Assembly: GCF_002243645.1 (NCBI RefSeq) | Contig: NZ_CP017704.1 | Coordinates: 2,209,501 to 2,273,500, forward strand | Reading direction: 5' to 3' | Source: Peribacillus simplex NBRC 15720 = DSM 1321 | Lineage (GTDB): Bacteria > Bacillota > Bacilli > Bacillales > DSM-1321 | Length of the DNA stretch: 64,000 bases | Shown: positions 1 to 30,433 of the stretch, piece by piece | How positions within the stretch are numbered: the first letter of the stretch is position 1 | How the letters are laid out: each line of letters starts with the position of its first letter | Made by a program: the position numbers and the translations under genes | Notes under the pieces: model-generated | Told to the model about the DNA's origin: nothing | What the model saw: the letters and a program-made list of their open reading frames with translations, nothing else | The model's database searches: none

Positions 1-2083
1 GGTTAACTGGCGGTTCGGCCTCTATTTCAGGAACTTCCGTATGATCTGACAAATTGGCAGACACTTCTTGAGCCTTCCCGGTAATTGCCGCTAATTCAGC
101 TAAAGTAGCTTTCTGCCCCGTTTCAACGTTAGCATCATATTCTTTCATATAACCCATAATGGAATCTGAGAACATCCCGAAGTTCTCATTGACTCCTGCT
201 AAACTGGCTTTAACGAGTTTCGCTTCTTCATCTACGTTTCCGGAAACCCCATTTTTCAAGTTTTCCAATTCTTTTATATTGGCTGCAAATACCTTATCTA
301 CATTTGCTTCCGTGACTCTTTCAGCCAATTCACCATAAGATGAGAGTGAACCGTAATAGGCAAGGAGGGTAGTAGAATCCCGATTGGTGATAGAATTCTC
401 AAAGGCCTTTACCAGCACCGCTCGCCTTTCTCCCCCCACTTTTTCAAGAAGTGACTGTTCGAGAGTCTTGATTTCTGCGATGGTCTCATCGATTGTCATA
501 CTCTGGATATCCTGTAATTTTTGAATATCTTCTTGTGACTTTTTCCATTGGTCACCTAAATCCTTATAATTCGTACCGAGTTCATTATAATCAGCTTGTA
601 ATTGCGTAAACTGCGCCAGCAAATCATTATATGAATCTACCAGTGTATTAAACTCCGTTATCACTTGATTATAATTTCCCGTTCTGCCGTTTACCGTTCC
701 GCTGAGATTATTGATTTCCGCTTGAAGCTCTGCTGTAAGAATGTTGATTTGTTCAGCAGCTCCTTCACTTCCTTCTGCCGGTACCAAACTTTCAAGTGCC
801 GTGTTGATCCCGTTAATTTGATCCAGTAGCACCTGCAGTGACAGTTCATCAATCGGGTCCTTCTTTTCAGGTGCAGCAACCGATTCACCTTTTCCCGTTT
901 CCGTTTCAATATCTTCTATAGGCGTCGTTCCATCATCAATAACCTCCCCCTCGCCAGAGCTGCTTGCAAGATTTCCTCTTTGCACAAGCAAGGTGGACTG
1001 AAGGTTATCAAGACCCGCCTCTTCCGATTGTTTAAATTGCTCAATCGAGCTTTGTTGATCTTGGGTGATTTTCGTAATTTGTTCTACTTGTTTGTCTTTC
1101 ATGCTTGTTGAAAATTGTTCCAATTCATTACTGCTGGAATCGAGTTTCTGCTGCATGATTCCAACATTCTCACTAATGCCTTGATCATTAAGGCTGTATT
1201 TCGTATTCATCCCTTGTTGAATCTCTGGTATAGATTGGTTCCCCTCATTCAGCACCTTGTCATATGATTGAACACTCTCCTTGACAAGCTGCTGATTTTG
1301 GACTGAAGTCTTCTCAAAAAGGATACTTTGAGCTTTTTGATATTCCTCAAAAGATACTACATCTTGTACAAAGGAAGCCATTTGAGTCTTAGTGTTTCCT
1401 ATTTCATCCATTGTTTCATTACTCGTTTTCCCTGCATCCTTAGTCTGGGCAAAGACTCCTTCAAGCATGTCTTTATGCTGCTTGATATCGCCAGCTAGGC
1501 TTTCCGAGCTTGGAGTATAAAACTCATACATCGTGTTTTGAAAAGCGATTTCTTTAGCAAGGACATTATCGAACTTCTTACGGATGTCCTCGACTGATTG
1601 GGAAACATAGCTCCAATACTGTGTTGAAATATGCTTATTCATTTTGCTCTTTGTCTTCTCTAATTCTTTCTGTACCTTTTCCATGTTCTCTGCATTCAAA
1701 CTAGGTTGTACCTTGTATTTTATCCCCGCCTTAACAGGCTGTTCATCATCGAAGGTATAAATATTCTTTGAAAAATCGGATGGAAAATATATAACTGCAT
1801 CATACTTTTCATTTGCAAGTCCACTTTCCGCCGTACTTCTATTAACCACAAACCACTCATATTCAGAATCCTTGTCCAATGTAGTAACAAGCTCTGTACC
1901 CACGTAAATGGGATTATTGTTAAATTCAGTGCCATTATCTTCATTTACAATGGCGATTTCACGAGAAGCCGTTTCTGTCTTTTTCATTGGATTTTGGCCA
2001 ATATATGAAAAAAACAAGATTGGCAGCGCTAAGATCACCAGTATTTTACCGATTAATAACATCGGTTTTATTTTTTCAGACAC
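1..2083 (-). CDS. esaA: Type VII secretion membrane protein EsaA/YueB (C-terminus beyond window)
   Basis: Large surface-exposed subunit of the Firmicute type VII secretion system; in B. subtilis the homologue YueB is also the receptor of phage SPP1. About 694 codons are present and the frame is still open at the left edge, so the C-terminal membrane segments are missing. One hydrophobic segment lies near the N-terminus (about residues 9-27), followed by a long Gln/Glu/Lys-rich region with heptad-like patterns, as expected of the elongated extracellular domain. I chose the GTG at 2083, which follows AAGGAG by 11 bases and overlaps the essC stop by 8 bases; an ATG seven codons in is the alternative. 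It is the last gene of the secretion operon visible here. The family call rests on context plus architecture. Confidence 0.87.
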   Translation of the reverse strand, partial: MSEKIKPMLLIGKILVILALPILFFSYIGQNPMKKTETASREIAIVNEDNGTEFNNNPIYVGTELVTTLDKDSEYEWFVVNRSTAESGLANEKYDAVIYFPSDFSKNIYTFDDEQPVKAGIKYKVQPSLNAENMEKVQKELEKTKSKMNKHISTQYWSYVSQSVEDIRKKFDNVLAKEIAFQNTMYEFYTPSSESLAGDIKQHKDMLEGVFAQTKDAGKTSNETMDEIGNTKTQMASFVQDVVSFEEYQKAQSILFEKTSVQNQQLVKESVQSYDKVLNEGNQSIPEIQQGMNTKYSLNDQGISENVGIMQQKLDSSSNELEQFSTSMKDKQVEQITKITQDQQSSIEQFKQSEEAGLDNLQSTLLVQRGNLASSSGEGEVIDDGTTPIEDIETETGKGESVAAPEKKDPIDELSLQVLLDQINGINTALESLVPAEGSEGAAEQINILTAELQAEINNLSGTVNGRTGNYNQVITEFNTLVDSYNDLLAQFTQLQADYNELGTNYKDLGDQWKKSQEDIQKLQDIQSMTIDETIAEIKTLEQSLLEKVGGERRAVLVKAFENSITNRDSTTLLAYYGSLSSYGELAERVTEANVDKVFAANIKELENLKNGVSGNVDEEAKLVKASLAGVNENFGMFSDSIMGYMKEYDANVETGQKATLAELAAITGKAQEVSANLSDHTEVPEIEAEPPVN

Positions 2084-5000
2084 TCTCTTGCACTCTCCTT
2101 CTTTCTTCACTTAGTGGAATTTGGATTTTACTCTCCTGGCCATTCAGAACAAAATATCCGTAACCCGGCTGTATTTCTTCTTCTTTTCTGGAATAGGAGA
2201 GAGTATACAAGCTTTGGTCCGATTTTTTAAGAAGCAAAACAGCCTGTCTGACTTGTTTCAGTTCGGTTGTCAACGAATCATACCCCTTGGTGAAGTCGTT
2301 GGCATTTCCAGCGACAATCAGACTAAACCCGAGATGGCCGTACTGTTTCATCAAACCGCTGATCCTATCCTGAATCCTGCCGTCTATTGTTTGTTGGATC
2401 CTTGAAATGCTATCTATGACAAACATGATCGGTGGGAATTCCAGTTGCTTCATCGGTTTCATTTCCAATGCCGCTAGATAGCTTCGTTCACGTTCTTCAA
2501 ATATTTCAGTGATATGATCGAGCCATTCGGTTATCTGATCTTTTGTTTCCACATAGCTCACCTTCTCCTCCAAAGCATAAGAAGATAGACCACGATCAAC
2601 TCCGTCAAATAAACCAATTTCCCCAATTGTCTGTGTAAGCAACGATTCCAAGAGCACTTTAAGGACATTCGTTTTCCCTTTACGTGACTGTCCTACGACA
2701 AGCAGGAATGGATTGGAATTCAACTCCACGAAAACAGGTGCAACGCTTTCCTCTGAAAGCCCGATTGGAATGGAATCCTTCTTAATGGCTTGTGAGCAGT
2801 AACTCTTGAAGCTGTTGGAATCAAGACGTGTCGGTAACATCGGAATTGCCGGCGGTTTGGCCATTTCCTTATATTTAACCTTATGTTCTGCCACGGCTTG
2901 TTTCATTTCTTCCAAAACGGCTATATCATCGGCTCCATCGGCTGGTAAATAAACCTGCGTGAGATAGGTTTGGTCCTTTTTCACCAACGCCCTACCAGGC
3001 ACAGGTTCATTTTCATAAGGGGTTCTCCCCAAAACTGAATATTGTTCCGAACTGTCCATTAAGTAATGGACGACCTTCGTCTTAAGACTATTCATTAACG
3101 GCTGGCGAATCGCATTGATTCTCGTTGCCGTTAAAATCATGAATATTCCAAGTGATTGTCCATCACGTGCAAACTGAACGAATTGCGCTTCCTGGTCCTG
3201 CATCTCATCCTTCACTAAGTCAAAATTGTCGACCACAATATAAATAATCGGCAATTCATCTTCCACTAATGCATTATAAAGCTTTATATTACTTAGCTCC
3301 TTTTCTGAAAAAAGCTGCTTACGCCTTTCCATTTCCGCCTTCATGAATAACATGAATTTTTCAATTTTCCTTAACTCATCGAACCTAAAGTATTCCCCAG
3401 TATGAGGCAGCTGACGCATTGGCAGTAAAGCGCTATTCCCGAAATCGAAAATATAATAATGCAGTTCTTCAGGACTGAATTGATCTGCAAAACTAAAGAG
3501 AAGTGTCAAAACGGTAGTTGACTTGCCGTATCCGGAAGAACCAAAAACCCCAACATTCCCGTCTTCAATCCAGTTATAGACATAATTTGTCTGGCTCTGA
3601 AATTCGGGCTCATCCTTCATTCCCAGGTGGAATTGATTCCTCGTCAGGCTTCTTTCAGTGTTTCTCGATAAACGATTTGAAAGAGGCGGCAGCCATGGGC
3701 TTGCCAACTTCATAATCTCCATTTCTTCCTGTGTCGCCACAATTCGATCCGCCACAGCTTCAATTTCACTAATCTTTTCTTTCCTCTTATTAGTTATCTG
3801 TTCCGATACATTTGAGATTTGAACCAGACCGAGGTCTGTGACAAGTGCCACTTCATCCTCAGATCCAACCGTATCTTCTAAATATGGTGCACCGCTCCAC
3901 GCAGACTGGAACAATTCATAAACCTCGTTATTTCCTACCTGCAAATATCCCCGTCCGGTGACAGTGATATTTGCCGCATCGCTATTTTTAAGAATTTCCT
4001 TACTATCATTGGCATCCTGCACTTTCAAGGAAATTTTAAAACGGGCATTACTCCAAATCTGATTATCAATTACACCGCCTGGCTTTTGTGTAGCAAGAAT
4101 TAAATGAACTCCCAAGCTCCGTCCTATTCGAGCCGTACTCACTAATTCGCGAATGAAATCTGGTTCTTCGTTTTTAAGTTCCGCAAACTCATCTGATATC
4201 AAAAATAAGTGCGGTAACGGTTCATCCGCTTTGCCTTCTTTGTATAAGTCCGTGTAATCGTTGATATGATTGACTTCGTATCGATCAAACATGCGCTGGC
4301 GTTTCTTCAATTCGCTATTGATGGAGGCTAGTGCCCTGGCACTGAAGTTCTTGCTTCCCTCAATATTCGTAATGACTCCCAGCAGATGCGGAATCTGCCT
4401 GAATGGCTGTGCCATTCCCCCACCTTTATAATCAATGAGCAAAAAGGCAACTTCATGTGGATGATAATGAACAGCTAATGATAGGATGTAGGTTTGCAGT
4501 AATTCACTTTTCCCCGATCCTGTCGTTCCAGCAACCAATCCATGTGGGCCATGCGCCTTTTCATGTAAGTTCAATTCAACCCTATCCGTTTTCCCTTTCA
4601 ATCCAATGGGAACTGCCAAGGATTTGGAAGACTGATTGGTCCGCCAGTTTTGGCTGATAGGCAGCTCTTCCACTTCACGAGCTTTTAATAATTCCAGAAA
4701 TGATACCGTTTCTGGTATGGAATTGTTCATGCCTTTTTGATGATCTAGTGAACGCAGCGTTCGTGCATAACGCTCATTCCCTTCTTTTGAATATGCATCA
4801 AGTTTAAAAGGAGTATGAACGGCCTTCGTTTGCTGGATGAGAATTTCACCTTCAAGATCATTTATATACTTCACAAGCGTATGGACATTTTCAGTCAAAC
4901 TTTCTTTTGCATCCGCTGCAAAAATCGTCGAGATACCTAAATCGTCTGTTTTACCTTCTAAATATTCCAATATGACATGCTCCGCAATTAAATTACGATC

Positions 5001-6554
5001 CGTGACAATAAAAACAAAGTGGGGAGTAAATCTCAATTTCCCTTTGTTTTCATCCAAATCTCTTTCCCTCAATATCTGATAAATCGAAGTCAGTAGCTGG
5101 TCACGTGATTGATCATTATATATAAAGCCTTTTGCATAGGCATGCGGCAATTGAAAATGAGGGAGCCATTTCATCCATTCCCATTCTTGGTAATCCTTTT
5201 CCGGAAAAATGGCCACAAATCGAACATCATGATAACTATGAAAAAAGGCCAGTTGCCCAATCAGTTGTTGCAGCTCCCGTTTAACAATCGATTCCTTTCC
5301 TACCAGGCCCATCGATCCGTTTGATAAATCGATAGATAAAGGAAGATCATCCAGGTTTTTGTATACATCCACAAGTTCCTGTGACTGCTCAAGTAAATCA
5401 TCAATATCCCGATTGGACATATCGCTACTATTTACCGACACCTGATAGCTTGAGGGTATGGTCGCCGTTCCGATCTTAAAGTGCAGAGCGTCTTCACTAT
5501 CCAAAGTCCGCTCCCATATACGGTCGCTAATACTATCAGTTAGATGCTTCATCCTTTCAAAGGAAGGGTAATGATAGAACAGCACATTCTTTTGTTTTTC
5601 AGACAGCTCTTGCAGTTCTTCCCTCTTCTGCTCTAAATACCTGGTATACACACGTTGACGTTTCTCTTCTCTGAATTTTTGCTTCTTTTTGTCTTTAAAG
5701 TATTGTACCGTCGAGGTAACTAAAGTCGTTGTGAACATCACAATCGATATGATGATGAAAATGCCCCGAGGCTGAATGACCGTGATGACCCCCATGACGA
5801 TTAGCATCATTAAAGGCGGCATAAGGATTAGCCATAACCCTCTATTATTATCTTCCGATTCTTGGCTCGGAAAAGATATCGTCACTTTCTCATCCGGCAA
5901 TTCGTAGATCATCCTTGGTGTTCGACGAAATTGTGGATAGCTTTTTTTCATTTCAGAGATGGGCTTCTTCATTTTAGATAAGGAAGTTTCATAACTTTCA
6001 GCACTATGAATCATCAATAAGTCGCCTTCAATCAACCTCAGCGCCATATTCGGCCAGCAAATCAGATCACCATTTTGAATGGGAACAGCCTTCGTTACCC
6101 TTTCACCATTCAGGTAAATCCTGTTTTCCTTTGGCATGAGATGCCACTGCCCTTTATGAAGCACAATGGAAAAGCCATTGCCGGAAACTGGTCCTTCTTT
6201 ACGGAAAGTTGCACCCACCTTGGTCGATAAAGTGATTTCTTTCAAGTTGCCTATATAATAGAGGCTTTCTTCCAATTCCCCTGCCGTATAAAAAATCTCG
6301 ACCGTTTCTTCTCCTTCATGAAAGGTGAAGCCTTGGAATGACTTTACATCGCCAAGCTTCTTGTCCTCTCTAAACACCTCATATCCATCAAATCCCTCAT
6401 GTTTTTCCAGCTTGATAGGACCATGTTCAAAGGGAATGGAATAAACGGTGATCGTATCCTGTTTTGATGGCCCAATCGTAATTGGACCGTTATGATTATC
6501 CTTGATCGTATAGGATTGGTAGGTCCCCTTAGAATAAATCCATAATAAACTCAT
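2076..6554 (-). CDS. essC: Type VII secretion ATPase EssC/YukB
   Basis: Membrane-anchored FtsK/SpoIIIE-type motor that recognises and drives WXG100 substrates. At 1492 residues it has the full family length (about 1480-1495). Residues ~1-185 resemble the tandem FHA-like cytosolic domains. Two membrane segments lie at ~239-280. Three ATPase modules follow: Walker A GTTGSGKS near 676 with Walker B-like LLIDYKGGG near 705 and the LISDEF segment near 785; Walker A GSSGYGKS near 1005; and a weaker third P-loop GQSRKGKT near 1288. This degradation from D1 to D3 is typical of the family. It lies between essB and esaA, 30 bases after essB, in one transcription unit. The protein is intact. Confidence 0.95.
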   Translation of the reverse strand: MSLLWIYSKGTYQSYTIKDNHNGPITIGPSKQDTITVYSIPFEHGPIKLEKHEGFDGYEVFREDKKLGDVKSFQGFTFHEGEETVEIFYTAGELEESLYYIGNLKEITLSTKVGATFRKEGPVSGNGFSIVLHKGQWHLMPKENRIYLNGERVTKAVPIQNGDLICWPNMALRLIEGDLLMIHSAESYETSLSKMKKPISEMKKSYPQFRRTPRMIYELPDEKVTISFPSQESEDNNRGLWLILMPPLMMLIVMGVITVIQPRGIFIIISIVMFTTTLVTSTVQYFKDKKKQKFREEKRQRVYTRYLEQKREELQELSEKQKNVLFYHYPSFERMKHLTDSISDRIWERTLDSEDALHFKIGTATIPSSYQVSVNSSDMSNRDIDDLLEQSQELVDVYKNLDDLPLSIDLSNGSMGLVGKESIVKRELQQLIGQLAFFHSYHDVRFVAIFPEKDYQEWEWMKWLPHFQLPHAYAKGFIYNDQSRDQLLTSIYQILRERDLDENKGKLRFTPHFVFIVTDRNLIAEHVILEYLEGKTDDLGISTIFAADAKESLTENVHTLVKYINDLEGEILIQQTKAVHTPFKLDAYSKEGNERYARTLRSLDHQKGMNNSIPETVSFLELLKAREVEELPISQNWRTNQSSKSLAVPIGLKGKTDRVELNLHEKAHGPHGLVAGTTGSGKSELLQTYILSLAVHYHPHEVAFLLIDYKGGGMAQPFRQIPHLLGVITNIEGSKNFSARALASINSELKKRQRMFDRYEVNHINDYTDLYKEGKADEPLPHLFLISDEFAELKNEEPDFIRELVSTARIGRSLGVHLILATQKPGGVIDNQIWSNARFKISLKVQDANDSKEILKNSDAANITVTGRGYLQVGNNEVYELFQSAWSGAPYLEDTVGSEDEVALVTDLGLVQISNVSEQITNKRKEKISEIEAVADRIVATQEEMEIMKLASPWLPPLSNRLSRNTERSLTRNQFHLGMKDEPEFQSQTNYVYNWIEDGNVGVFGSSGYGKSTTVLTLLFSFADQFSPEELHYYIFDFGNSALLPMRQLPHTGEYFRFDELRKIEKFMLFMKAEMERRKQLFSEKELSNIKLYNALVEDELPIIYIVVDNFDLVKDEMQDQEAQFVQFARDGQSLGIFMILTATRINAIRQPLMNSLKTKVVHYLMDSSEQYSVLGRTPYENEPVPGRALVKKDQTYLTQVYLPADGADDIAVLEEMKQAVAEHKVKYKEMAKPPAIPMLPTRLDSNSFKSYCSQAIKKDSIPIGLSEESVAPVFVELNSNPFLLVVGQSRKGKTNVLKVLLESLLTQTIGEIGLFDGVDRGLSSYALEEKVSYVETKDQITEWLDHITEIFEERERSYLAALEMKPMKQLEFPPIMFVIDSISRIQQTIDGRIQDRISGLMKQYGHLGFSLIVAGNANDFTKGYDSLTTELKQVRQAVLLLKKSDQSLYTLSYSRKEEEIQPGYGYFVLNGQESKIQIPLSEERRRVQESV

Positions 6555-6584
6555 TAAATCTCACCTCCGCAAAAGGCCCATTGC

Positions 6585-7934
6585 TCACTCTTTGCTTTTC
6601 TCTTTTTCTTCAGATGATTTTTTTGAGGAATCCTTACTTTCTTCTTTTCCCCCAGAAGCAGGTTCGTTTTCCACTTCTTCTTTTACAGCAGGTTTTGCTT
6701 CCGCTGCGCCTTTATCCTCTATATTCGACTCTGTTGCAGCAGGGTTCTGATCTTGCTGTTCTTCCATTTGCTTTTTCAATTCCTTTAATTCCTTTTCATA
6801 TTGGGACAGCTCAGTATCGATTTCTTTAATTTGCGTTTCCTTTTCTTCCCCTGAAAGGTTATCGTCTAACTTAATCTGTTCTTTCTGATTTAACAGACCA
6901 TATGTAATCAATTCGCGATCCTCCATGATTCTCGCCAAATCGATCGCGTCCTCGTTCATGCCCCTGCCTATATAAATCCAATATAGAAGGTACTGACTAT
7001 CGGTCTGCAAAGTGATGGCATTTTCTACATTCTTCTTCGGGACACCCTCCAACGGCTCATAAGTGACATAAGATCTTGCCAGTTCATATTGAACGACATA
7101 CGGCATCTTTTTTGGATCGTAGTTTTCCAAACGGTCAATGACTTCACTATATTTTTGTTTTAAGAAGCTTTCACCGCTCTCTACATAGGCATCCTGTCTT
7201 GGGTGGGAGAAGAATAGTGTGTAAATCGTAAACCACAGCAGTGGTACTAGAACGATCACCGTTCCCCAAAGTGTATAACGGCCCGTTTTCCATTTCTTTT
7301 CAGGGATATGCACAAAAGCTTTTTCTTCCTTCTCTAAAGCATCTATCCGATCTTGAATGACCGTGGAAAGTTCATCCCAAGTCCCCGATGCCAATATACT
7401 TTGTGATTCGTTCGATAGTTTTAGTGTTTTATGGTAAAGCAGATACTCTTCGAATGTATACTGCCCATCCACAAGCGCCGAAATGGTTGCCTTCGTTTCT
7501 TTAAATAGCTCATCTTGATTATGCTCATAAGGAGGCAAACTGTCTTTTACGCCATAATGCAGGAAATATGGGGCCAAGCTTGAATCAAAAACGATATTTT
7601 CTGGACAGACGACTAGTTGCAGGCGACTCAACTCATGATTCCTGATTTTCTTCAAGATTTGATAAGACGATAACCATCGACCCAATAGATTTTTATCTTT
7701 AGCTTTGGAAAAAACAAAAAAAGAGGCTGGTGGATTAACTCTGATCTGCACCTCGTCCTCTGTCACTTCTATATTTTTCTGGAGAGCATCATCCGCTTCA
7801 TGAATAAGCTGTAATTCCAATGGGTCTTGCATCGATAGTTTTGCCCGTTGGAAAACGAACAATTGCCCATTATCATCCTTCTTCATTGCAGCTTCTGTTT
7901 TTTTCTCCAGATATGAGGATTTTTTCTCATCCAT
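6585..7934 (-). CDS. essB: Type VII secretion pseudokinase-fold protein EssB/YukC
   Basis: Single-pass membrane component of the type VII secretion machine; EssB/YukC proteins have a cytosolic pseudokinase-like domain and a surface domain. The 449 residues match the family length. Residues 1-215 are the cytosolic part, one strong transmembrane segment lies at ~221-242, and the outer part ends in a charged Glu/Lys-rich coiled tail (~370-449) of low complexity. It lies between yukD and essC in the conserved order. No P-loop or catalytic kinase motif is visible, as expected for a pseudokinase. Confidence 0.93.
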   Translation of the reverse strand: MDEKKSSYLEKKTEAAMKKDDNGQLFVFQRAKLSMQDPLELQLIHEADDALQKNIEVTEDEVQIRVNPPASFFVFSKAKDKNLLGRWLSSYQILKKIRNHELSRLQLVVCPENIVFDSSLAPYFLHYGVKDSLPPYEHNQDELFKETKATISALVDGQYTFEEYLLYHKTLKLSNESQSILASGTWDELSTVIQDRIDALEKEEKAFVHIPEKKWKTGRYTLWGTVIVLVPLLWFTIYTLFFSHPRQDAYVESGESFLKQKYSEVIDRLENYDPKKMPYVVQYELARSYVTYEPLEGVPKKNVENAITLQTDSQYLLYWIYIGRGMNEDAIDLARIMEDRELITYGLLNQKEQIKLDDNLSGEEKETQIKEIDTELSQYEKELKELKKQMEEQQDQNPAATESNIEDKGAAEAKPAVKEEVENEPASGGKEESKDSSKKSSEEKEKSKE

Positions 7935-8004
7935 TTTATGTACTCCTTTACCCCTGCTAAAGGGCTTTAGACTTTTTTACTATAAAGAGTCCACACTTAA
8001 TCCA

Positions 8005-8253
8005 TTAGAGGATCTCAAGGCGGTCCCCCGTCGTAATTCCGCTATCAAGCAGGGTTTCATAACCTGAACATACGAACTCTTTATTCTGGACCCGCACCCA
8101 ATAGCCTTCTTTAGGTGCATTGGCAATATCCTTTACCTGCCATATTATCTCCACAACCTTCTTGATGGAGCGGTAATTCGACACTTGCAAATCAAATACT
8201 TCCCCTGTATACCTGTTTAAATCGATCGTTAGTTGAATATATATGGAAGCCAC
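8005..8253 (-). CDS. esaB: Ubiquitin-like type VII secretion protein EsaB/YukD
   Basis: Small ubiquitin-fold protein of the type VII secretion operon (YukD in B. subtilis, 79 residues), thought to be regulatory. The body matches the family, from TIDLNRYTG through GITTGDRLEIL at the C-terminus. The open frame reaches an ATG at 8286, but that start lies inside a terminator hairpin and adds a non-homologous head (MKTWCFFALKEV). I report the GTG at 8253. However, the best Shine-Dalgarno (AAAGAGGTGG) covers that GTG and sits 5 bases ahead of an ATA codon at 8244, which would give exactly 79 residues beginning where the family begins. The start is therefore unsettled; the gene itself is clear. Confidence 0.85.
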   Translation of the reverse strand: MASIYIQLTIDLNRYTGEVFDLQVSNYRSIKKVVEIIWQVKDIANAPKEGYWVRVQNKEFVCSGYETLLDSGITTGDRLEIL

Positions 8254-8265
8254 CTCTTTTAAAGC

Positions 8266-8306
8266 AAAAAAGCACCACGTCTTCATAAAGAGTCGCGGTG
8301 CTTTTT
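8266..8306 (-). terminator. Intrinsic terminator/attenuator between yukE and yukD
   Basis: On the minus strand a 10-bp perfect stem (AAAAAGCACC with GGTGCTTTTT), extended by a CG pair after one mismatch, runs into a T tract just after yukE and before yukD. It would let the WXG100 gene be made in excess over the membrane machinery, with read-through supplying the rest of the operon. Confidence 0.8.
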
Positions 8307-8339
8307 CCTAGAAATTTCTTTATCTCTTTGACCTAATGA

Positions 8340-8630
8340 TTATCCGCGAATTTGACTAGCAATCTGATTATCTGTGTCTTCAAGGATTTGAGCTGATTTA
8401 TTCAATTGTTGAGAAACTTCATTCAACAAGCGAGCCATATCCATGAATGAAGGCTTTAATTCTTCGTATTGACCTACGAAAGCCTCACTGGAAGAACCTT
8501 CCCAGATACCAGTTAAATGATCTCTCATTCTATCTAAACGACCAATCATATCCGTTACTTGTTGGCTCTCATTGTCATATTGTCTAGCTACATCTTTCAG
8601 TTCCGAAGGTGTTACGCGAATTTGTGACAT
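8340..8630 (-). CDS. esxA: WXG100 family secreted effector/chaperone EsxA/YukE
   Basis: Small helical-hairpin protein exported by the type VII secretion system. It has 96 residues, the standard WXG100 length, with the turn motif W43-E44-G45 between two amphipathic helices. The start is well supported: AAAGGAGG lies 8-9 bases ahead of the ATG. As first gene of the yuk operon, followed by a terminator, it is probably the most abundant product. No LXG-type toxin or immunity gene accompanies it in this window. Confidence 0.97.
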   Translation of the reverse strand: MSQIRVTPSELKDVARQYDNESQQVTDMIGRLDRMRDHLTGIWEGSSSEAFVGQYEELKPSFMDMARLLNEVSQQLNKSAQILEDTDNQIASQIRG

Positions 8631-25530: not shown

Positions 25531-25700
25531 ACCCTCAGGATATAGAGCTTCTAGCATTAAATGTTGAAAATGAAAACTTTTTCTTAAACATTATAAAGTA
25601 CCATGGGAAGCTATTAAACGGTGACCATGGGAATACAAATACGATGAGCATGAAAAGGCCTCCCACAGTATACTGTGGGAGGCCTTTAACTTTAAAGTGA
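25527..25700 (+). CDS. Doubtful 57-residue ORF coupled to the gerC stop
   Basis: GTG at 25527 overlaps the gerC TGA and has AGGAGG 9 bases upstream, an excellent ribosome site that argues for translation. The first ~42 codons (MNPQDIELLALNVENENFF...) look like a protein, but the last third is the translated 34-bp palindrome. Either a small operon-tail gene was interrupted by insertion of the hairpin element, or the Shine-Dalgarno match is incidental to gerC codons. No family is recognised. Confidence 0.35.
   Translation: MNPQDIELLALNVENENFFLNIIKYHGKLLNGDHGNTNTMSMKRPPTVYCGRPLTLK
25654..25687. repeat. Perfect 34-bp palindrome (hairpin element, copy 1)
   Basis: AAAGGCCTCCCACAGTA is followed at once by its exact reverse complement. 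The inner 28 bases recur at 46769-46798 with only a two-base change at the centre. In RNA it folds on either strand and is followed rightward by a short T run; it probably terminates the ger operon. Its recurrence suggests a dispersed element. Confidence 0.85.
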
Positions 25701-25908: not shown

Positions 25909-28900
25909 TCAGCTTAATTCCACTTTAGTAATTTCACTTAAATAAACCCCATTTAAAATCGAGTCTTCGTCTGCAACAACATATTCAATAACAGTCGGGC
26001 TTAAGGTTCGAATATAAACAAAAGCTGAATCATCTACATGCTCAATTCGAAGCTTTTTCCTCTGTGCCTGCTTAATATCAAGCTGGTTGGTACTAGCTTC
26101 CGGCAGGCTTGTGTAATAAAGTTCAAAATCTTCTTCTGACGCATCAATGAAAAGATGCCATATGTTATACTCTTCTTCTTGATCAATCACTGTTTTTAAC
26201 TTCCCTTTTCTCCCGATGCCAAGAAAATACTTGAACTTTGATTCACCATTCACCATATCGCGGTCAATAACTTTTATACTTCCGCCTTTTCTGCTTTGTA
26301 CAAGTCCAAAAGCTACGCCTGTTTTTCCCGTAGGAGCTGTTAAAATATCTCGGTTAACCACTCTGTTTCTCTCTTCTTGCTTTAAATAAGCGCCTTCTGT
26401 CCCCAGTGGTGGAAGAATCTCAAAAAGATTATCAGACACTTCCCCCCAGTTTTGAGTGTTCTGTACTTCCCTTTCAATCCATTTATTAAATAGATTCATA
26501 ACGACCGGGGATTTACTTGAATTACCCGCAAGCAGTATATTTACTTTATTAATTTTGCCGGGTTCTGACCGGGCAAAAGCGCGCCTTAATGACTCAAAGA
26601 AATTTTTAATGCCTTTTTCAATTCTTTCCTCAATCAGTTGTTCCATTTCATCTTGATCGATCAAAAGTTCCACATTGAGTTTTGCGTGGCCGGCTTTGTC
26701 AAACAAGTCTGCCCGAATCATGCCTTTTCCAAACTGTTCTTCATACCGTTCATGTCTTTCCCAAAGTGGCCTTAATTTTTCTACCAATTGTTTCGTATTT
26801 AAATAGGATTCTTGTGACTCATTAATCAGCGTTTCACTTCCGGGAAATTTCACACATTCTGCTGGGAGAGTAAAAGGAATATTTAGCTCACGCATTGTTC
26901 TTTGATTGTTTTTAAACACTTGGAACGCCAAAAGCTCTAGCACGTTCTCTCCGCCTAAATAACGGTCCCCGCCCGCTGCAAAATGCTCAATGACATAATC
27001 ATATCTGCTTTCTTTCAAGCCCGCTTCACGCCAAATACCAAAATCAAAATCTGTCGTTCCTCCACCAAAATCAAACACACCGTAGTACGTTTTTTCATCC
27101 TCTTCCGGTTCAAACCCGTATTCCTGTAAGGCACAAACGGCATAGGCAGCAGGTTCACTAGCCCCAGCGGTGACACGAAACTTTTTCATTAATTCTTCAT
27201 CCTGCTGAATCGGCATAGGAAGCGTCTTTTTTAACCCACGCTCAAAACACTTTAGAATTTTTTCTCTTACCTCTTTTTCATACGTCACCGGGAAAGATAA
27301 GGTGTAGTCCAGGTAAATTCCATTGTTCTGGTTATTGATATACAAACCGAGGTAGTAGGCGTATAACTCAATTGGGTTGATTTCCTGATCGGTTAAGTCC
27401 AGAAAGGAACGCAGTACAACGGCATATCCCCTCTTGTCTTTTAATCGGAGTTCGTTTTTCTTTTCTCCAGCCCACTGCTTTAGATTATTCAATATGGAAT
27501 AATAATGGTCACTCTTTCCATTCATCAAGTTGTTAAGGGCATTGTGGGAAACCGTCACATCCTGCCACCTTGTATCTGGTCTTCCTTCTTTTTCTTGATA
27601 AAGCTCCAGGAAATGTTCTAAATCAATAAATTCAATCACGGTTGGATTTTCATAATGCCAGTCTTGTACTTCCGTGTTAAGGTAGCCAACCCCAATACGC
27701 ATGGGAAGAGTAAAATCACTTTCTTCTTGATGAACGACCACTGTACTTTTCGTTCCAAAATCAATGCCAACTATGCCGTCCTCCCTAATATCCAATTTAG
27801 GGTTTCTGGCCATTATTTCTTCGTTCAGTTTTATCGTTAAAGGTTTTTCATCAGAGTGGACAGGCCATAAATCCCAATGTCCTCGGTTTGGATCTATTAA
27901 CATCTTTTCATCATATGTATCAATATCAGCTCTTACTTTTTCAGAGTTTAAAAGTTTCACATAAAACGTCTTGGAATCGATAGCTATTGATGGCAATTCT
28001 TTTAGAAAACTTTCATGATCTAAACCCTTTAATTGATACAATGCCAGCAAATAATCATACTCCTTCTGGCGTTCTGCGCTTAATCCACTTGGTACTAATC
28101 GGTTTTCCAGCCAGAGATGGAGAGCCATTTGATCATTGATTTCAAAGGCATTTTCCCCATTTAAACGGAAAACAGGAACGAAAAATCCTTTTCCTAGCAA
28201 ATTGTTTTTTTGATTTACTACATCGAAACTTTGAATGTCGTACCCGTTGAATTTAAAAGCTATTGATTTAGAAGAGTTCGTCGCTTGATTGGCAAATATC
28301 CTTGAAATGGAAGGATTTTTACTTGTGGAGTAATCATCTAAAGCTATTATTTTCTTATATACAGGGTGATCGGTTGTATTGAAACTTTTGGCAGCTTCTT
28401 CCCGTGTCATGGCATCACCTATAAAACCGGCAACGTCCAGATGCTTTTTGTAGTCAAAATCTTCGTCCATTAATTCATAGTATTTTCTATAAGGAAATAA
28501 AGCTGCAATGTTGTGATCATATATAACATTTCCGTTATTCATGTAAACCCATCTGGAACGGAGCATCTTTTTAATGTCTTGAAAGAAGCCCGCTTCATCC
28601 TTAAAAAAGGTTTCTTCTGCACTCTGATATAAATGACTGATTAAAGATCTCACTTCTTTATAAGTCATTGAAATGGCAGAGACCGGAACGGTTTGGGAAT
28701 CAGGTGAGTATAGATCCTGCTCTTCGTTCTTATTCATTAAGTAAATAGAACTGTCTATGTTATTTTTTTCAGCTAAACTTGTTACGTTCTCAAGGGGCTC
28801 TTTATCTTCTATTATTTCTTGTTCTTCAACTTCTTTTAATAATTCTCCTGAAAGGGCTTCACCAGAATCCAAATAACATATCAGATCACCAATCTTGACA

Positions 28901-29094
28901 ATAGTGTCCTCCGCTACATGCAATTCTTTAAGGGTACCTTCTTTTTCTGAAAAGAGGTCAAATTCGATGCCCTCACAGCTGAATTTGGCTAAGCTTTCGC
29001 CCACCGTAATATAATCGCCTGGCTGTTTATACCATTGCACAAGAAGGATTTTTTCAATGCCTTCTTCAATCTCTGGGACAATAATCGATGTCAT
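25909..29094 (-). CDS. Hsp70/actin-like ATPase with N-terminal degenerate lipoyl-like domain
   Basis: A 1061-residue protein that I do not recognise as a characterised family. Residues ~1-77 resemble a biotinyl/lipoyl swinging-arm domain (QPGDYITVGESLAKF...GTLKELHVAEDTIVKIGDLICYL), but the modified lysine position reads CEGIE instead of the usual DKA, so modification is unlikely. Residues ~80-435 are of unknown type. An Hsp70-type ATPase follows: phosphate-1 VGIDFGTKS (~442), connect-like ASEPAAYA (~645), phosphate-2 FDFGGGTTDFD (~674) and adenosine motif LLAGNSSKS (~854). No canonical DnaK substrate-binding domain follows; the tail (~920-1061) looks beta-rich. Start: AAAGGAG 8 bases before ATG. 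It lies 35 bases downstream of the GrpE-like gene. Likely a specialised chaperone or ATP-driven switch. Confidence 0.85.
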   Translation of the reverse strand: MTSIIVPEIEEGIEKILLVQWYKQPGDYITVGESLAKFSCEGIEFDLFSEKEGTLKELHVAEDTIVKIGDLICYLDSGEALSGELLKEVEEQEIIEDKEPLENVTSLAEKNNIDSSIYLMNKNEEQDLYSPDSQTVPVSAISMTYKEVRSLISHLYQSAEETFFKDEAGFFQDIKKMLRSRWVYMNNGNVIYDHNIAALFPYRKYYELMDEDFDYKKHLDVAGFIGDAMTREEAAKSFNTTDHPVYKKIIALDDYSTSKNPSISRIFANQATNSSKSIAFKFNGYDIQSFDVVNQKNNLLGKGFFVPVFRLNGENAFEINDQMALHLWLENRLVPSGLSAERQKEYDYLLALYQLKGLDHESFLKELPSIAIDSKTFYVKLLNSEKVRADIDTYDEKMLIDPNRGHWDLWPVHSDEKPLTIKLNEEIMARNPKLDIREDGIVGIDFGTKSTVVVHQEESDFTLPMRIGVGYLNTEVQDWHYENPTVIEFIDLEHFLELYQEKEGRPDTRWQDVTVSHNALNNLMNGKSDHYYSILNNLKQWAGEKKNELRLKDKRGYAVVLRSFLDLTDQEINPIELYAYYLGLYINNQNNGIYLDYTLSFPVTYEKEVREKILKCFERGLKKTLPMPIQQDEELMKKFRVTAGASEPAAYAVCALQEYGFEPEEDEKTYYGVFDFGGGTTDFDFGIWREAGLKESRYDYVIEHFAAGGDRYLGGENVLELLAFQVFKNNQRTMRELNIPFTLPAECVKFPGSETLINESQESYLNTKQLVEKLRPLWERHERYEEQFGKGMIRADLFDKAGHAKLNVELLIDQDEMEQLIEERIEKGIKNFFESLRRAFARSEPGKINKVNILLAGNSSKSPVVMNLFNKWIEREVQNTQNWGEVSDNLFEILPPLGTEGAYLKQEERNRVVNRDILTAPTGKTGVAFGLVQSRKGGSIKVIDRDMVNGESKFKYFLGIGRKGKLKTVIDQEEEYNIWHLFIDASEEDFELYYTSLPEASTNQLDIKQAQRKKLRIEHVDDSAFVYIRTLSPTVIEYVVADEDSILNGVYLSEITKVELS

Positions 29095-29129
29095 TGTTAT
29101 TTCTCCTTTATTATCATCTTTTTCGCCTG

Positions 29130-29822
29130 CTAGATTCTCACAACGGCTTTTTTAATGGTTTTACCATTAATGCTTATATATCCTGGCAGCAGGATGTCCG
29201 TAATGTTCCCGGACATTTTGCTATTGAGGGCTCTTATGTACAAGTCTTCTCTGAAGACCTCATTCATTTTCACTTCCTGTATTTTATATAAAGGGGTATC
29301 GTATGTTTTACTGTACTCTTGAAAGAAAAACAGAAAAAGGGCGAGCAAAATCTCTCTTTCCTGCTCTCGTCCTTCCATAATCTCGTTTTTAATAAAATCC
29401 CACAAAGATGAAATGTTTTCATATTGCACACCACAGACAATAAATTCCTGCACCGAACCGCCCTTGAAGATTCCTTTTAAGGAACTTTTGGTGGTTTCGG
29501 ATAATTGTTGAACAGCTTCATAAAGTTCTTCTGCTTCCCGATAGTCTGCTCTTCTCTTTTGCAATTCATTAAAATAAGATTCCATTTTCTCATTTAGATG
29601 GTGGATCATTATTTGATACTCACTAATTTCCTCTTTTTTCGACTCAATCACTTGTTGGAGCCTTGCAATTTCTTTTTCTTTTTCTCTCAGTAGCTCCTTA
29701 TGTTCCCCTATTTGACTAAACGAGCCCGCTTCTGCTATTTCTTTTATCTTTTCAATGACCCTTTCGTCTTGAAGGGAAACCATTAATGCCCCAATAAAAC
29801 CATCATCTAATTCTTTATTCAT
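29130..29822 (-). CDS. Coiled-coil protein with GrpE-like C-terminus
   Basis: First gene of a two-gene operon with the Hsp70-like ATPase. Residues ~40-120 are a strongly charged coiled coil (EKEKEIARLQQVIESKKEE...). The C-terminus ends ILLPGYISINGKTIKKAVVRI-like text, which resembles the beta-domain of the nucleotide-exchange factor GrpE (proline-Gly-Tyr, then Gly-Lys and a terminal V-x-I). At 230 residues it is in the GrpE size range. The start has AAAGGAG 7 bases ahead. I infer it is the dedicated exchange factor or adaptor of the neighbouring Hsp70-like protein; the sequence likeness is short, so this needs a profile search. There is no DnaJ-like partner. Confidence 0.7.
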   Translation of the reverse strand: MNKELDDGFIGALMVSLQDERVIEKIKEIAEAGSFSQIGEHKELLREKEKEIARLQQVIESKKEEISEYQIMIHHLNEKMESYFNELQKRRADYREAEELYEAVQQLSETTKSSLKGIFKGGSVQEFIVCGVQYENISSLWDFIKNEIMEGREQEREILLALFLFFFQEYSKTYDTPLYKIQEVKMNEVFREDLYIRALNSKMSGNITDILLPGYISINGKTIKKAVVRI

Positions 29823-29861
29823 CTTTACACTCCTTTCAAAGTGTTAACCAACCATGAATAG

Positions 29862-30077
29862 CTACATAAGCTTGCTCTGCTGTTTTTGTACCAAATATAC
29901 CTTCTCTGCCCATTTATTTTGGACTTTCTTTACCCAATTCGCTATTCGAGCATCACTTTTGATACCAAATCGCTAACGAAGCTGACGGATATGACAGCCT
30001 TCCTCCAACTTCAAACGAGCAACTTTCCGCTTTAATTCTTCTGTATATGTATGAAAGGCTTGCCCCTTTTTTGCCAT
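29862..30077 (-). pseudogene. IS3-family transposase OrfA remnant
   Basis: Reading left from ATG 30077 (GGAAGGGG upstream) gives MAKKGQAFHTYTEELKRKVA, then LKLEEG, an in-frame TAG, and FGIKSDARIANWVKK, the helix-turn-helix of IS3/IS150-type OrfA. It stops at 29864. No orfB follows and no terminal inverted repeats were found, so only a decayed fragment remains. It lies directly upstream of the GrpE/Hsp70-like operon. Confidence 0.78.
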
Positions 30078-30151
30078 AGAAAAATCCCCTTCCAGATAGA
30101 CTGTTAGGAGAATACAACCATAACTTATATTCTAAGAAAGCAGTAGTGAGA

Positions 30152-30433
30152 TTACTTATTTCCATCAAAAATACGTATATAACGTATTAAAGATGTATTG
30201 ATAATATGATGCTTACTATCACTTTTTACAATAAAATACTCACAGTGTTCCATCCTTTTTAAGACTTCTTGTAAAACATCCTCTTTTTTACTACTCAGTC
30301 CTTTTTTTATTTTCTCCCACTTAACATCAGCGTCAAGAGTATAACAAACATTGAATTCCTTTAACAGGTTAATCTTCCCCTTATATGCTTTAGTTTCTTT
30401 AACTGTTTTTATTTTGATAAAATCCTGATACAC
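30152..30433 (-). CDS. Hypothetical protein, 93 residues, doubtful
   Basis: Unrecognised lysine-rich soluble frame (begins MYQDFIKIKTVKET, ends IRYIRIFDGNK), starting at a GTG without a clear Shine-Dalgarno. The amino-acid composition is protein-like (KKEDVLQEVLKRMEHCEYF reads as a helix and strand), so it may be a real small gene or the surviving C-terminal part of a larger one. The neighbours are a broken IS3 orfA and coding fragments, which favours a remnant. Confidence 0.4.
   Translation of the reverse strand: MYQDFIKIKTVKETKAYKGKINLLKEFNVCYTLDADVKWEKIKKGLSSKKEDVLQEVLKRMEHCEYFIVKSDSKHHIINTSLIRYIRIFDGNK

Follow-up and report, generated by a model that had tools for sequence, protein, structure and literature searches.

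The window analysed here is a 64,000-nucleotide stretch of Peribacillus simplex NBRC 15720 = DSM 1321 (contig NZ_CP017704.1, positions 2,209,501 to 2,273,500), and it contains a conserved and unusual Hsp70/exchange-factor-like gene pair on its reverse strand. The open reading frame (ORF) list places the small gene, which encodes a 230-residue GrpE-like partner, at 29130..29822 (-) and the large gene, which encodes a 1061-residue Hsp70-like ATPase, at 25909..29094 (-). The 35 bases between them (29095..29129, -) include an AAAGGAG sequence ahead of the large gene, and the same sequence precedes the start of the small gene. ORFs, gap and ribosome sites are all as described in the original prediction, which had been made from the letters of the window and read the two genes as a self-contained chaperone and exchange factor. 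That reading is supported by the likeness of the small protein to GrpE and by the linkage of the genes. Both genes are under purifying selection, with ratios of nonsynonymous to synonymous substitution (dN/dS) between the window and 12 other genus copies of 0.12–0.31 for the large gene and 0.13–0.41 for the small one.

Domain organisation of the two proteins

The large protein can be divided into a pseudo-lipoyl domain (residues 1–80), a linker (80–130), an N-terminal domain tentatively described as Lcl_C-like (~135–400), an Hsp70 ATPase domain (438–939) and a tentative SBD-beta-like domain (940–1061), with no lid. Its structure was modelled with AlphaFold2 from 37 sequences (mean predicted local distance difference test score, pLDDT, of 78.9; poor at residues 1–128 and 252–302). 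In the predicted structure, residues ~438–939 match the Hsp70 ATPase domains of DnaK, BiP and Hsc70 at Z ~20, and a Foldseek search with the model returned Hsp70 ATPase matches down to E=3e-21. The sequences GIDFGTKST, ASEPAAY, FDFGGGTTDFD and LLAGNSSKS align with the DnaK motifs which we take to be phosphate-1, connect-1, phosphate-2 and adenosine, respectively; the four ATPase motifs noticed originally are therefore confirmed by alignment with DnaK as well as by the predicted fold. On the basis of motifs and model, the large protein is predicted to have an Hsp70-type ATPase domain, and it counts as Hsp70-like by its modelled fold rather than as a DnaK. Among Pfam models only Biotin_lipoyl (4–75) reaches its cut-off, and the PF00012 matches in the window's own genome do not include this locus. 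The NCBIfam models for HscA and DnaK match at ~646–733 below their cut-offs (HscA far below, at 3.3e-6), as do lipoyl-protein models at the front, and the single sequence searched against Protein Data Bank (PDB) sequences finds lipoyl proteins only.

Several full-length Hsp70 chains continue to align with the predicted structure as far as residue 1054–1061, at a root-mean-square deviation (rmsd) of 6.5–10.1 Å and over 440–465 residues, as against ~344–368 for the rows that cover an ATPase domain only, whereas other full-length chains stop aligning near 939–973. Comparison of 940–1061 with SBD-beta sequence profiles gave E=0.16, which is not significant, the DnaK profile being a poor one with an effective number of sequences (Neff) of 1.1. 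We tentatively describe this segment of the model as SBD-beta-like. The helical lid (SBD-alpha) is missing, because the modelled chain ends after the beta-domain. The claim that there is no DnaK-type peptide-binding domain is thus clear for the lid but doubtful for residues 940–1061, which align with SBD-beta in structure though not significantly in sequence.

The ATPase domain is preceded by the ~440 front residues that had been noted at the outset, including the lipoyl-like domain (PF00364, residues 4–75, E=1.5e-8). The ATPase itself begins at ~438. Residues 1–80, encoded at 28855..29094 (-), give a good alignment with OdhB-type lipoyl domains; the large protein, however, has SCEG where OdhB reads ETDK, presumably the site of the lipoylated lysine, and this lysine is replaced by glycine. 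A working lipoyl carrier was rejected on account of the lost lysine. The SCEG sequence is kept in 12 of the 13 genus copies, including that of the window, and the ORF of the thirteenth lacks this part. The pseudo-lipoyl domain is conserved (dN/dS 0.10–0.27) and the linker behind it is looser (0.19–2.29). In a scan of 37 family members the pseudo-lipoyl domain was found in the window's protein alone, while residues 135–400 have counterparts in family relatives. Pfam Lcl_C was seen in four of the 37 members, and both Acinetobacter plasmid proteins matched it at a score below the curated cut-off. Between its non-proteobacterial and proteobacterial versions the N-terminal domain shows a weak resemblance (E=1e-3, probability 22%), which is only suggestive of an Lcl_C-like fold for the Bacillota version at ~135–400.

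The small protein consists of a long helix (residues 20–104), a helical part (109–172) and a GrpE-type beta tail (179–229). Its AlphaFold model (pLDDT 92.6) has a long helix, shorter helices and then strands, which is the order found in GrpE, and the protein is probably a coiled-coil dimer. The beta-domain tail of GrpE has the signature F-D-x-x-x-H ... G-Y ... K/R-x-A/S-x-V, and the window copy reads FREDLY where most partners have FDxxxH. When 23 partners were compared with 18 GrpEs using hhalign, the profiles matched with E=6.9e-6 and a probability of 84.5% over 47 columns of the beta tail, so the small protein has a tail homologous to that of GrpE by this comparison. In both structure searches GrpE likewise takes first place, with weak scores, and it makes up six of the first 12 VIA-align rows (ranks 1, 2, 6, 9, 10 and 12). 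The profile and structure lines are individually weak, but they agree in that the small protein resembles GrpE. The long coiled coil with a GrpE-like beta tail, as first proposed, is in keeping with both the profile comparison and the predicted architecture.

Distribution and gene neighbourhoods

Both genes are present in the same 13 of 36 genus genomes (the large gene being interrupted in G024), are adjacent by coordinates in all 13, and are absent from the other 23; as had been predicted, they form a unit. The large proteins of the genus are 93–97% identical. Seven genus loci were compared and share one common chromosomal place, flanked by a beta-lactamase-like gene in all seven and by germination-type genes in six (not L170). 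On the opposite side gluconate-type genes come next in five, L170 has other genes in between, and the contig of L167 ends. The names of these flanking genes were assigned by reading. The pair looks vertically inherited in the genus and not recently mobile, because its chromosomal place is shared in the seven loci compared, and recent mobility was rejected given the shared flanks. Of the "accessory island" originally proposed, the accessory nature stands (13/36), but the pair occupies one common place in the seven loci compared and does not look recently mobile.

Beyond the genus, the family set comprises at least 53 loci including the window, brought to that size by a named-genome scan and two plasmids; 35 weaker genome loci (L097–L131) and seven viral loci (L132–L138) were dropped before counting. 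Loci cut by contig ends were kept, and L096, the same Megasphaera locus as L049, is one of the 53 but was omitted from the tree; in GC-rich loci the gene calls are approximate. The family spans at least five phyla (Bacillota, Pseudomonadota, Campylobacterota, Bacteroidota and Spirochaetota), and a relative at E<=1e-15 is present in five of the 397 further genomes sampled from the window's phylum. The closest relative among the matches listed is that of Ureibacillus xyleni (L052, 62%), with which the window groups in a tree of 54 sequences (100/99).

A partner is recognisable in 30 of the 53 loci among the matches listed (weakest in L007 and L092, at ~E=1e-6), 26 of which also supplied sequences to the partner profile, and the spacing of the pair is 32–38 bases in seven further loci. 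In the remaining 23 loci no partner was recognised among the matches listed. For 17 of these (all except L057, L074, L075, L078, L087 and L094) the genomes, mostly drafts, were searched for a partner elsewhere, with matches in 4/4 positive controls: three carry one, no match was obtained in nine, and in the other five the matches were weak (E 2e-6 to 3e-4), covered just the coiled-coil part, lay in frames of 481–1349 residues and were discounted. Solo large genes occur in several groups of the tree, and well-supported branches force at least five changes.

Recurrent neighbours were counted within the fetched DNA, again among the matches listed: a HerA-type ATPase in 17/53 loci, a glycine-rich hydrophobic protein in 13/53, a DUF4280 cluster in 7/53, six of which have a VgrG-like and Hcp-like set, and a dynamin-like GTPase in 4/53. 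The partner is present at 14 of the 17 HerA loci and at all seven DUF4280 loci. In the window's genus the pair is not accompanied by HerA-type or DUF4280 genes. These names come from tested representatives, namely L006 and L049 for HerA, L052 and L047 for DUF4280, L047 for VgrG-like and (weakly) Hcp-like, and L089 and L073 for dynamin; the Hcp-like label comes from a single weak TssD match in L047 (E=0.0024), which stays under the curated cut-off. L047, L048, L059, L069, L080 and L082 start with the pair; they also contain a DUF4280-cluster gene, VgrG-like and Hcp-like genes, and additional gene families in common. Within L047 (6964-19390), a single gene joins DUF4280 to an AHH-nuclease-like part, whose score falls just short of its cut-off.

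Upstream of the Ureibacillus pair lie an Hsp70-vWA fusion, a gene for a 1084-residue protein without Pfam match, and a DUF4280 gene; the fusion gene (L052:2566-4662) encodes a PF00012 domain (25–547) and, behind it, a von Willebrand A domain (522–685). On a Helicobacter plasmid (L007:5115-13810) the pair is followed by WXG100-like ORFs, a WHH nuclease and an FtsK-type ATPase, with an SMI1/KNR4 protein also present, and the Hsp70-like gene there is split across two frames. Section 10 of PMC11090510 describes ORFs of a different system that are fragmented in Helicobacter.

Proposed role and alternatives

Hsp70s are usually seen as folding chaperones assisted by J-proteins and GrpE. DnaK and GrpE (PF00012 and PF01025) share with the pair the Hsp70 ATPase domain, a GrpE-like partner and possibly an SBD-beta-like domain; the pair differs from them in having no lid and ~440 extra N-terminal residues and in falling outside both Pfam models. 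Ssz1 of the ribosome-associated complex, which is among the best structural rows for the large protein, is an Hsp70 acting within one dedicated complex, its partner being a J-protein and not a GrpE-like protein. In our literature search, which left most subscription journals outside, we recognised no description of this architecture, in agreement with the original prediction, although related ideas appear in PMC11090510 and PMC7159879. The former describes type III CoCoNuT operons in which an Hsp70-like module (CnuD), as in the family, can go along with FtsK/HerA-type ATPases, WXG100 proteins or glycine-zipper proteins. There CnuD is described as going with McrB/McrC-type proteins, for which no search was made here, and the parts consulted do not mention a GrpE-like partner. 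In PMC7159879, ~14% of GAP1-N2/DO-GTPase neighbourhoods contain HSP70 and GrpE, and a subset has a second HSP70 without the peptide-binding domain. HSP70 is thus accompanied by GrpE there too, but those neighbourhoods also hold DO-GTPases and GAP1, frequently along with a DnaJ-fused protein, none of which were searched for here. In PMC8651086, the occurrence of DUF4280 (PAAR_H2) beside Phage_GPD in Firmicutes led to speculation about an "unknown phage-like translocation system". The six loci that start with the pair, with their DUF4280-cluster, VgrG-like and Hcp-like genes, resemble those loci, but the window's own genome is without DUF4280. No link between the DUF4280 system and an Hsp70/GrpE-like pair, and no paper on DUF4280 with Hsp70, was found in the literature searched.

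We consider it likely that the two genes encode an Hsp70/exchange-factor couple. A number of results weigh against this. The counterpart of the DnaK catalytic Lys70 could not be placed in the large protein, PF00012 matched none of 37 family members at E<=0.01, and a four-sequence family profile found DnaK among PDB sequences at E=0.056 only. For the small protein, the best VIA-align score is Z 6.4 (rmsd 11 Å), with unrelated long-helix proteins reaching 6.1 and the program itself cautioning that Z at this level may reflect merely a common arrangement. Foldseek finds GrpE at ranks 1, 2, 3 and 5 but weakly (E 0.045–0.36), and PF01025 (Pfam GrpE) gives no match at E<=1. Moreover, 14 of the 17 tested solo-gene genomes have no accepted partner elsewhere. 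Since solo large genes exist, some lineages have lost the partner or never needed it, and it is dispensable there; the expectation that homologues of the two genes would be found linked holds in all 13 genus genomes but not at these loci. Finally, the HerA and DUF4280 contexts are not directly applicable to the window's own genome, because it has neither neighbour. Profile searches there found no HerA-type relative (2/2 known genomes gave matches) and no DUF4280 (3/3 positive-control genomes matched, one below the curated cut-off). The same HerA search found none in Ureibacillus L052, and DUF4280 was found in 0/36 genus genomes by a search that also missed its controls. That the small protein is a mere coiled-coil scaffold, its GrpE-like tail arising by chance or having lost exchange activity, would fit a profile match that spans 47 columns only, as well as the low structure scores and the missing PF01025 match. 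We think this quite improbable, however, as the tail sequence, the succession of secondary-structure elements and the genetic linkage with an Hsp70-like gene all agree.

The explanation that fits best overall, and which we regard as reasonably probable, is a dedicated Hsp70/exchange-factor pair belonging to a separate family. The nucleotide state of the large protein would be passed to its SBD-beta-like and N-terminal domains, which may recognise a specific client protein, while the small protein, judging from its GrpE-like tail and architecture, would open the ATPase domain and reset the large protein. In this way the pair could assemble, load or release a machine. Rather than a general folding chaperone, the pair is more likely to be a switch, or a factor for the assembly or release of one complex, because there is no lid and no J-protein was noticed beside the pair; no DnaJ-like gene was noticed by eye among the ORFs of the window, the genome not having been searched for J-proteins. 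The HerA and VgrG/DUF4280 contexts suggest that this complex is, in some relatives, probably a machine for protein delivery or for conflict. Candidates are the HerA-type ATPase with its glycine-rich hydrophobic protein, the VgrG/Hcp-like/DUF4280 phage-like injector, and the dynamin-like GTPase. Such a role for the pair is plausible, though we lean somewhat against it. In the window's genome the client would be something other than a HerA-type or DUF4280 machine, since the genome is without a HerA-type relative and DUF4280. Bolder, and distinctly doubtful, is the idea that the switch family powers or gates delivery machines (Firmicutes phage-like loci and HerA-type pumps) and that in this genus the disabled OdhB lipoyl domain is a decoy reporting attack on 2-oxoglutarate dehydrogenase or on lipoylation.

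A stress or defence role was part of the original prediction. An anti-phage or conflict system, in which the pair would detect an invader and activate an effector, is possible but unlikely. It would suit the accessory distribution in the genus, the WYL regulators near the pair in L006 and L047, the HEPN and dynamin-family genes in L006, the type I restriction genes in L095 and the kinase and PP2C genes in L083. The two tested HerA-type ATPases also resemble the PADLOC HerA and mad8 models, and Hsp70 modules are part of predicted conflict systems in the consulted portions of PMC7159879 and PMC11090510. Against this, PADLOC gave no match for the large protein, phage records contained no family member, and in viral contigs one search gave a single pattern match and no relative, while a second gave Hsp70 matches that were weak (seven, at E 3e-8 to 2e-4) and included no family member, so the proposed role was not borne out by these searches. 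The common place in the genus and the 93–97% identity of the large proteins also speak against it, and no effector gene was recognised beside the pair by reading. As for stress, a second general heat-stress chaperone of DnaK type would have the Hsp70 ATPase fold and a GrpE-like partner, but is very unlikely given the missing lid, the absence from 23/36 genus genomes and the canonical DnaK and GrpE already encoded in the window's genome, whose single PF01025 match is located elsewhere.

Equally unlikely as the anti-phage system, in our view, is a chaperone factor for protein export, which would maintain a tube/spike component or secreted protein in usable form and, in this genus, might serve the type VII system ~17 kb away. 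Relatives do lie beside VgrG-like, Hcp-like and DUF4280 genes, WXG100-like and FtsK-type genes adjoin the pair on the Helicobacter plasmid, and the window contains a yuk/ess-type type VII cluster at 1–8630, with WXG100-, YukD-, YukC-, EssC- and YueB-like ORFs named by reading and YukC confirmed. However, YukC is found in 12/13 genus genomes with the pair and in 17/23 without it, G021 has the pair and no YukC that was found, and unrelated genes lie between pair and cluster. A link to this cluster was rejected because the presence of the pair does not track YukC, and for the same reason the cluster counts as a neighbour rather than as a demonstrated partner. What gives the dedicated pair its interest is that a cross-phylum Hsp70-like family has its own GrpE-like partner, lacks a lid, carries a different front domain and, in several lineages, lies among protein-pump and phage-like-injector genes. 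If the pair loads, opens or dismantles those machines, it would offer a handle on Firmicutes translocation loci, for which the part of PMC8651086 seen offers gene neighbourhoods and speculation.

Other features of the locus

A strong palindrome at 25653..25687 (15 pairs, -29 kcal/mol, z -7.2; no strand assigned) separates the pair from the convergent germination-type genes and is a possible terminator, although it was absent from the list of a terminator scan. Promoter and terminator scans gave 20 and 4 sites, compared with 17.7 and 3.9 in shuffled sequences, and so no useful signal, and Rfam gave no match over 20–40 kb of the window. Plasmid searches with the small protein and with a 93-residue ORF upstream of the pair on the same strand (30152..30433, -) gave no match. 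This ORF is recognisable beside the pair in all 13 genus loci, with a stop near the start in three copies and one copy interrupted, and it may be a third component. Just upstream of the small gene, at ~29860-30080 (-), lies an insertion-sequence transposase remnant with stops, read by eye and presumably of the IS3-like type.

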